54,805 bases of DNA. Origin: a virus. The notes under the pieces were generated by a model. It had not been told where the DNA came from. It did no database searches and saw only the letters and a program-made list of their open reading frames with translations. The DNA is taken from positions 1 through 54,805 of IMG/VR virus record IMGVR_UViG_3300029826_000003; one strand, 5' to 3'. A program made the translations under genes and the position numbers. Positions 7,781 through 9,218 of this stretch are shown here, one piece after another. The stretch's first letter is position 1, and every line of letters begins with the position of its first letter.

Positions 7781-8404
7781 ATGGCATCGAAAGCCGAAAA
7801 GCTCAGAGCAAAAAGACAGAGATCCGCCCAACGAGGCCGTCCTGAACTATACGCTTCTTCTGACGACAGGGAGCATAACGGCCGTCAAAGCCGCCGCAAG
7901 ATGGCCGTACAATCACGCAGGATGGAAAACGAACGCCAAGTGAAGGACACGGTTATATCGGCTCGCCAACGCGTTCACGGGATCGATGAGACGGTTTGCG
8001 ATGGACAGGATGCCGGGTCGGTTCTAGGACGTCTGTATCTCGCCGGCATGATCAAGCTGCACCACAAACGCGCTGGACTACGATTCGAAGAGGACGCGAT
8101 CCGGTATTGCGCGCTGACAGGTATTCCATTCCCGAATCCGAGGGCTATTGACCTGGGAAAGGTCAGGGGCCTTGGCCATGATGCAAATCCATCCGATGCA
8201 AGGGCTGCGAAGGACAAATTCATGAGGCTGGAAAGATGCCTCAGTGACGTTGATGTTTCTGGACGTCCCGTCACGACAATTGTCAAGCGTGTCTGCCTCA
8301 GTGACAATGACGACGGGATTTATGCGACGCATATGATTCAGCATCTTTGGCGCGGTCTGGATGCATTGGTGGACTACTACGAGATTTCGCGATCCGATGA
8401 TTGA
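7781..8404 (+). CDS. DUF6456/RinA-like candidate late regulator
   Basis: 207 residues. It has a very basic N-terminus (KAEKLRAKRQRSAQRGRP), a middle LYLAGMIKLHHKRAGLRFEEDAIRY and a C-terminal helical part VKRVCLSDND ... LWRGLDALVDYYEI. This spacing (aged filament-like helix, VC, GL..L..YY) matches the DUF6456/RinA-like proteins that precede packaging genes in alphaproteobacterial phages. Its place as the last gene before the RNA-rich region and late genes supports a role in late transcription. A 13-codon ORF (7740-7781) overlaps its start and may couple translation. Confidence 0.6.
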   Translation: MASKAEKLRAKRQRSAQRGRPELYASSDDREHNGRQSRRKMAVQSRRMENERQVKDTVISARQRVHGIDETVCDGQDAGSVLGRLYLAGMIKLHHKRAGLRFEEDAIRYCALTGIPFPNPRAIDLGKVRGLGHDANPSDARAAKDKFMRLERCLSDVDVSGRPVTTIVKRVCLSDNDDGIYATHMIQHLWRGLDALVDYYEISRSDD

Positions 8405-8427
8405 CTGACGTGGCAAATCACTTTAAT
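8401..8427 (+). promoter_or_regulatory. possible late/ncRNA promoter
   Basis: TTGACT (8401-8406) and TTTAAT (8422-8427) are separated by only 15 bp, which is short. It stands at the end of the early operon and directly upstream of the structured RNA region. Confidence 0.35.
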
Positions 8428-8444
8428 TGTCAACGCCAACAGGA

Positions 8445-8482
8445 TGGCGCTTTGCGCCAGATGAATTAGCGCCAAATGGCGC
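8445..8482. repeat. paired inverted repeats TGGCGC/GCGCCA
   Basis: Order of arms: TGGCGC (8445), GCGCCA (8454), GCGCCA (8469), TGGCGC (8477). The four arms can pair in two alternative ways, as in a switch or a protein-binding array. Confidence 0.75.
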
Positions 8483-8600
8483 GACGAGTTGCGCATAGGG
8501 CTACGTCCTGCGAGACCTGAGCCTGAACTGGATGTCGCAGCATCCATCCCCACCATACCTAGGGGCGCGCATTCATTCCCCAGCCAGTAGCTGGGAACAG

Positions 8601-8727
8601 ATCTGGACGGCGGCGTGGAAAGCGGACACGCATAGACCGCGAGAGGCTGTGGGTCTCGCACCGCAAGGCAACCAGTGCCTGACTGGCAAAGACAGCTGAG
8701 CAGGGATAGCGTCCTGCCCGTCCAGAT
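8601..8727 (+). ncRNA. multibranch RNA closed by a perfect 10-bp stem
   Basis: ATCTGGACGG (8601-8610) pairs with CCGTCCAGAT (8718-8727). Inside are four hairpins: GCGTG/CACGC (8613-8631), GCGAGA/TCTCGC (8639-8659), CCAGT/ACTGG (8672-8686) and GCAGG/CCTGC (8700-8717). It has the outline of an enlarged cloverleaf but no TTCGA loop. No known RNA class recognised. Confidence 0.6.
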
Positions 8728-8779
8728 ACGAAATATGTTTTCGTGGGTGCCGACTTTCAGGGAGAGGCTCACGGAAATC

Positions 8780-8866
8780 GGGACGGTTGGAACGGCAGCC
8801 ACTCTCTAGTCGCCATAGGATCATGCCAGCGAGGAGAAAGTACCGGTTCGACTCCGGCCCGTCCCG
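8780..8866 (+). tRNA. tRNA-like element (possibly degenerate)
   Basis: Acceptor stem GGGACGG (8780-8786) pairs fully with CCGTCCC (8859-8865), followed by discriminator G and ACA rather than CCA. The T arm is ACCGG-TTCGACT-CCGGC (one mismatch). The D region has GGAAC.GGCAG as in class II tRNAs. The anticodon arm CTCTA-GTCGCCA-TAGGA pairs poorly; its loop would give anticodon CGC with an unusual C at position 37. About 87 nt in all. It could be a decayed tRNA or a tRNA mimic. Confidence 0.45.
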
Positions 8867-8982
8867 ACACCCAAGCCGCACTGGCGGCAAACAGGAGCGG
8901 TCAGAACCGTACACGAGCCGCTGTGGGGCCTTGGCTGACCAAACGCGAACGGTGACGGGCGGAGAGAGTGCCGCACAAGTTT

Positions 8983-9014
8983 AGCGCTCGTTGGTCTCAC
9001 GATCAGCGGGCGCT
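8983..9014 (+). terminator. terminator-like hairpin
   Basis: AGCGCTCG (8983-8990) pairs with CGGGCGCT (9007-9014), one G-T pair, 16-nt loop, followed by a weak T-rich stretch. It could end the ncRNA or only partly block transcription into the late genes. Confidence 0.5.
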
Positions 9015-9053
9015 TCTCATTTCCCGGCATACTGGCATCAGAAGGAACGCGGC

Positions 9054-9218
9054 ATGATCAACCAGAGCCTCAAGCACGCATCCGGCATCAGCGGCACGAT
9101 CGATGCCGTCGCTGTCCATCCCGATGGAATGGCGCTCGTGCGGATTTCCGATCGCTGGTTCCTGGCGGCCGAATGCGGCCAGCGTTCCAACGTGCTGCCT
9201 GCATGGATCAGGGTCTAA
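9054..9218 (+). CDS. small protein at the start of the late region
   Basis: 54 residues beginning MINQSLKHASGISGTIDAVA, with AAGGAAC upstream. Short beta-strand pattern (IDAVAVHPDGMALVRISDRWFLA), perhaps a small barrel. No family recognised. Confidence 0.6.
   Translation: MINQSLKHASGISGTIDAVAVHPDGMALVRISDRWFLAAECGQRSNVLPAWIRV

Follow-up and report, generated by a model that had tools for sequence, protein, structure and literature searches.

Results

A noncoding region between early and late phage genes

We analysed the full 54,805 bases of IMG/VR virus record IMGVR_UViG_3300029826_000003 (henceforth called the window), in which replication and repressor-like genes make up the early region before 8.4 kb, and terminase, P22-type portal and head genes are found from about 12.7 kb onward. 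A noncoding region at 8405–9053 is bounded by a gene assigned to phrog_15385 and by a small frame at 9054. An initial annotation had described this region as dense in inverted repeats, the most striking being a perfect 10-base-pair (bp) stem enclosing four hairpins. We found that the region is an array, composed of element A (closed by this stem), element B (which resembles a transfer RNA, tRNA), element C and a terminator-like hairpin (Table 1), and that element A almost certainly belongs to a real RNA family. As had been proposed, element A follows the early operon and precedes the first late gene.

The region is noncoding, as annotated: none of its open reading frames had a convincing PHROG match (one reverse frame had E = 0.035), and the stretch contains no supported gene. 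The reported density of inverted repeats held clearly for long arms and less so for short ones. Specifically, we observed 3 perfect repeats with arms of at least 9 within 160 nucleotides (nt) against 0.3 expected (0/200 shuffles), and 7 with arms of at least 6 within 20 nt against 2.3 expected (1% of shuffles), while the earlier hairpin list alone was only modestly above expectation. Two shuffle tests of the predicted folding energy of 8405–9053 (-270.6 kcal/mol) gave z = -3.6 and -3.1, values that by themselves would not carry a claim of structured RNA. No Rfam family reached threshold in the region, placing it outside the known Rfam classes as had been suspected; a lax search returned noise and a 16-bit match of element B to the tRNA-Sec model, with nothing meaningful for the 10-bp stem.

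Element A and its relatives

Relatives were found with a lax nucleotide search using 1 kb of the window, which returned four short unannotated matches corresponding to two phages with duplicate records: Ochrobactrum phage POI1126, matching 8598–8631, and Escherichia phage D6, matching 8947–8979. The POI1126 match sits between two tRNA genes and has the closing-stem layout and the first and last hairpins of element A; a search with this part of POI1126 added the Pseudomonas phages Persinger, PotUPM1, D14H and Orimi01. Scans of 2.9 million viral contigs for the patterns of the two hairpins, P2 and P4, gave many loci, and a scan for the whole frame yielded at least 135 non-redundant copies from phages and viral contigs.

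The family consensus consists of a closing stem P1 of about 8–10 bp, the linker CG, the hairpin P2 (GCGUG[GAAAGCRGA]CACGC, loop in square brackets), an insert of 33–236 nt that frequently begins with AG, an A before P4 (90%), the hairpin P4 (GCCGG[NGUAGCGN]CCGGC) and, immediately after it, the 3' strand of P1 (P1'). The whole element spans about 95–295 nt with 20 core pairs, and no conservation was found outside P1 in the flanks of the copies. In the window, the perfect stem is present where it had been placed (ATCTGGACGG/CCGTCCAGAT, 8601–8610 with 8718–8727). Two of its enclosed hairpins are the conserved P2 (8613–8631) and P4 (8700–8717), but because 8632–8699 is the variable insert, the reported row of four hairpins is only one way in which the sequence can fold and is not conserved. 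The insert is generally unalignable across the family, and a common fold of the inserts was rejected, as the span of the outermost helix did not differ from that in shuffles. An enrichment of TAGCTC in the inserts, considered as a sign of tRNA D-arms, was rejected as it came mostly from one subfamily.

Covariation among the copies, judged from sequence, is decisive for element A. In 63 aligned copies, 93.3% of cells were paired and 18 of the 20 core pairs had changed on both sides, so that the refuting condition of the initial annotation, a lack of compensatory changes, clearly does not apply. The covariation score was 0.553, compared to 0.133 in shuffled alignments (0/500) and 0.07–0.11 when the pairing partners were slid, and mutual information placed the proposed pairs in the top ranks. 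Given that the frame scan itself demanded some pairing, and the test could thus be circular, we repeated it with copies selected by a single hairpin. Among copies selected by P2 only, a P4-type hairpin with any loop abutted a P1 of at least 7 bp in 97/117 cases (0/117 with a shuffled P1 strand), and its unselected loops were NGUAGCGN-like and near-invariant. Selection by P4 only recovered P2 together with P1 in 72/128 (none in the control), with unselected P2 loops reading GAAAGCRGA with few changes. Pairs 4 and 5 of P1, which the scan left unconstrained, were paired in 95–98% of copies and included all four Watson-Crick types; the sequence of P1 varies freely among copies.

By the models and sequences compared, the family is new: it is absent from the Rfam library, and its nearest kinds are GOLLD and ROOL. 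No prior description was found by searching Rfam and the open-access literature, motif letters included. A protein-coding explanation was rejected, as there was no family match, the long frames seen in a few copies were not conserved, and the family matches that occur lie outside the element. At one locus (L101:7383-8057), the open frame of a GapR-like DNA-binding gene continues through element A without a stop.

We also found about 40 loci of element A in bacterial genomes, most of which scored 40–90 bits with a covariance model that had been built without them. Most were assigned to Alpha-, Beta- and Gammaproteobacteria; other phyla account for single loci. Their distribution is sporadic: in the genus of L267 (Pseudomonas), 1/79 genomes carried the element, and this was the starting genome; in the family of L272 (Salipiger), 2/81 carried it, the starting genome included. 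As this is expected for prophages, we conclude that the family is phage-borne and treat the bacterial loci as putative prophages. The cultured carriers are phages of Pseudomonas and Ochrobactrum. Six loci (L261, L103, L117, L016, L041 and L236) each hold two full or partial copies, some of them diverged, in an array-like arrangement, and at another a copy of element A is followed, at a distance of about 580 nt, by the Rfam RNA Betaproteobacteria-1 (L186:1351-1469).

Genomic context of the family

The genes next to element A are diverse, with no dominant family on either side. Distant homologues of the phrog_15385 gene were found upstream of the element in five other loci (L039, L050, L165, L264 and L296), and in three more the position is taken by another gene, which is phrog_6386 (a transcription antiterminator) in L057 and a relative of it in L131 and L038. 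Strand statistics were obtained with a self-made, rough gene caller based on codon position, for the 55 copies without an overlapping called frame (73 of the 135 copies were set aside, the caller having placed a frame over them). The upstream neighbour was on the same strand as the element in 46/55 copies, the downstream neighbour in 39/55 and both in 35/55; there were 11 convergent and 4 divergent arrangements, and the downstream gene was on the opposite strand in 16/55. In Persinger, the copy (107 nt) lies 3' of the integrase gene, immediately before a terminator.

A tRNA gene lay within 1 kb of 14 of the 135 listed copies, always on the strand of the element, as opposed to 2 of 207 control windows (p = 7e-5). 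T-arm hairpins occurred at 0.21–0.38 per kb in or beside the element versus 0.0015 per kb farther off, an approximately 100-fold difference, and 8 of the 135 listed inserts contain tRNA T-arms.

Table 1 Features in and next to the noncoding region of the window
Feature	Position	Strand	Description
Upstream gene	7781–8404	+	phrog_15385, function not assigned
Upstream part of the noncoding region	8405–8600	+	Short hairpins, e.g., 8445–8482 and 8579–8595; fold z -1.9
Element A	8601–8727	+	Almost certain member of a new RNA family; 79.7 bits with covariance model R1, whose training sequences included this copy
Element A, P1 5' strand	8601–8610	+	10 bp with 8718–8727
Element A, linker CG	8611–8612	+	Between P1 and P2
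Element A, P2	8613–8617/8627–8631	+	Conserved hairpin, loop GAAAGCGGA at 8618–8626
Element A, variable insert	8632–8699	+	Between P2 and P4
Element A, P4	8700–8704/8713–8717	+	Conserved hairpin, loop GATAGCGT at 8705–8712
Element A, P1 3' strand (P1')	8718–8727	+	Directly abuts P4
Element B	8777–8867	+	tRNA-like; P1 TCGGGACGG/CCGTCCCGA at 8778–8786/8859–8867 (9 bp)
Element B, T-arm	8842–8858	+	ACCGG[TTCGACT]CCGGC, abuts P1'
Element C	8887–8979	+	Second recurrent RNA; core GACGGGCGGAGAGAGTGCCGCA at 8954–8975
Terminator-like hairpin	8983–9024	+	Hairpin 8983–9014 of 14 bp with a 4-nt loop; tail TCTCATTTCC

Other elements of the region

The annotated region had been treated as one RNA of 650 nt, a reading that we rejected: relatives carry A or C separately, and the borders of the elements are sharp. 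Element B shares the P1–P4 layout of element A, and its 5' strand ATCGGGACGG is identical to P1 of element A at 9/10 positions. It has a canonical T-loop (TTCGACT), but its 3' end is GACACC; ARAGORN does not call it, and the tRNA-Sec match is its only one of the kind. We infer that element B either is related to element A and resembles a tRNA, or is itself a tRNA in decay.

Element C belongs to a family different from that of element A. It is 86–88% identical to L294 and L305 over about 90–100 nt, and its core occurs as GACGGGCGGAGAGAGUGCCG in phage D6 and relatives, with about 25 distinct loci in all. Directly 5' of the core, 19/25 loci have a hairpin of at least 5 bp whose sequence changes from locus to locus, compared to at most 7/25 at other offsets. 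With the core GACGGGCGGAGAGAGUGCCGCA and a covarying hairpin before it, the element was found in L002:2998-3034, L294, L305, L288, L295, L296, L300, L307 and most of L323–L354. Carriers include the P1-like phage D6 and E. coli plasmid relatives, and 97 E. coli genomes contain at least 80% of the D6 stretch. No Rfam match to element C was found in the loci scanned. An apparent complementarity of the element (GUGACGGGCGG) to the decoding region of 16S ribosomal RNA was dropped, since its GU is explained by the covarying hairpin. In a 112-kb phage contig, an element C core (L331:2636) is preceded at a distance of about 160 nt by a permuted alphaproteobacterial transfer-messenger RNA (tmRNA; L331:2101-2479).

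A third shared noncoding motif (GAGGC..GCCTCAAC-GAATGCGAG..GGGAGACA..CTACGGATAGGCTCGCACAGA-TGCGAGGCG) was seen in L003:2840-2920 and upstream of element C in L294 and L305; in POI1126 it has a tRNA on one side and element A on the other. For the upstream part of the region (8405–8600), a lax nucleotide search found no relatives, and its hairpins may be chance structure.

Discussion

Interpretation of the RNA island

The best explanation of the region as a whole, which we put forward tentatively, is an island of co-transcribed, trans-acting structured RNAs in which element A is a tRNA-like scaffold. The island would be transcribed together with the upstream operon, like phage tRNAs, and the terminator-like hairpin would close it before the next gene. 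Element A itself is probably transcribed and acts in trans, as its sequence and context suggest. Its layout recalls that of tRNA, tmRNA and YrlA, with a closing stem, a 2-nt linker, a D-arm-like hairpin, an insert and a T-arm-like hairpin joined to the stem without a spacer. Thus P1 may serve as an acceptor stem and P2 as a D-arm, with the insert replacing the anticodon arm and P4 stacked on P1 as a T-arm. Such a scaffold would present a phage-specific insert, and could be bound by, or compete for, a host tRNA-handling or translation factor during infection. A tRNA-like mechanism of this kind is possible but doubtful, and we regard as more doubtful still the wider proposal of a phage RNA class, originating in tRNA/RNA islands, that mimics the shape of tRNA, replaces its anticodon arm with a phage-specific insert and targets, in trans, either the translation of the host or its tRNA-based defence.

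Several observations weigh against the tRNA-like scaffold. The loop of P4 is NGUAGCGN and not the T-loop TTCRANY, no conserved CCA follows P1' in the copies, and element A was matched neither by the tRNA (RF00005), tmRNA or YrlA (RF02553) models nor by an ARAGORN call. Linkage to tRNA genes is limited to a minority of copies (about 10%), no promoter was found adjoining 8405–9053, and the enrichment of terminators after the copies is weak (7.5% vs 4.2%). The loop positions G22C23/G41C42, candidates for a loop-loop kissing interaction, are nearly invariant, and the two loops that would make a D-loop/T-loop contact hardly vary. Finally, the insert is more than free cargo, because one subfamily (in Pseudomonas and other loci) conserves its sequence and structure, with compensatory changes at some places; by direct reading, this subfamily may form a pseudoknot, CTCCG/CGGAG, for which L240 has CTCAC/GTGAG.

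The initial annotation had suggested a regulatory or packaging RNA, or an RNA acting on the host. A trans-acting RNA is the best fit to the data, but cis control of one downstream gene agrees poorly with the context of the family. A cis-acting leader or RNA antiterminator would be the 5' untranslated part of a phage operon, letting RNA polymerase or ribosomes into late or tRNA operons, with HK022 put RNA and the Q control of lambda as models. The place of element A in the window, with an early operon on one side and the first late gene on the other, is what this explanation expects, and so are the mostly co-directional neighbours, the antiterminator gene or its relatives upstream at three loci and the recurrence of phrog_15385 relatives in the same position. 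Against it, a leader predicts the opposite of the observed excess of convergent over divergent arrangements, the downstream gene is on the other strand in 16/55 copies, no downstream gene family recurs, and the Persinger copy is placed after the integrase gene and just before a terminator. Given these context statistics, a cis-acting leader is unlikely as a general role, although it is not impossible in this window. We consider it less plausible still that element A is a mobile or tRNA-derived element, i.e., a selfish RNA or DNA that lands in noncoding stretches and tRNA arrays and acquires tRNA fragments. The sharp borders at P1 with unconserved flanks, the T-arms found in some inserts, the varied genomic sites and the presence of two copies in some loci would all be compatible with mobility, but the loci showed neither an enzyme nor a target-site duplication, their targets were not consistent, and the strong conservation of the two loops and of the pairing argues for a function as RNA.

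A further explanation is at the level of DNA, where the palindromes would act as a recombination, replication or packaging site. Inverted repeats could form in DNA too, but at pairs 4 and 5 of P1 G-U outnumbered A-C by 9 to 1, conservation of the loops is confined to one strand, and the orientation of the element follows transcription. Its genome position in phages is not fixed, for which reason packaging is an unlikely role and both packaging and attachment sites were rejected; a DNA-level element is highly improbable overall. Chance structure in GC-rich noncoding DNA could have produced a hairpin list so close to shuffled expectation, but for element A it is refuted by the covariation and the two-way recovery of the motifs with zero controls, leaving it a negligible probability.

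To return to trans-acting structured RNAs, an RNA family with such strong covariation and so many phage carriers but without an Rfam entry is unusual. Being small and present in cultured phages of Pseudomonas and Ochrobactrum, element A lends itself to direct tests of whether it is made in infection, whether it is processed like a tRNA and what binds it. The findings also suggest that noncoding RNAs other than tRNAs (here at least A and C) are part of phage tRNA arrays, which bears on the purpose of these arrays.

Comparison with known RNAs

Among small phage RNAs, HK022 put RNA is a cis-acting antitermination RNA with two hairpins found near the starts of operons. By description, element A is likewise a small phage RNA with two hairpins, but it is frequently located at operon ends. 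In tmRNA, a large insert takes the place of the anticodon arm; element A differs in that its inserts, which can be as small as 33 nt, conserve no tag frame. The Y RNA YrlA is marked by a conserved Rsr-binding stem; element A does not match its model, and its P1 varies freely in sequence.

The nearest kinds, GOLLD (RF01998) and ROOL, are noncoding RNAs of phages and prophages whose function is not known and which frequently lie by tRNA islands (PMC12286853). GOLLD is structured, with tRNAs sometimes found within its variable linker (PMC12286853). Neither the window nor the scanned loci of relatives gave a match to the GOLLD or ROOL covariance models. GOLLD frequently exceeds 800 nt, far above the length of element A, and the fold of ROOL is complex and contains several pseudoknots; a homo-oligomeric RNA cage is a trait of both. 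What element A, itself rare in bacterial genomes, shares with GOLLD and ROOL is its occurrence in phages and putative prophages with tRNA genes nearby.
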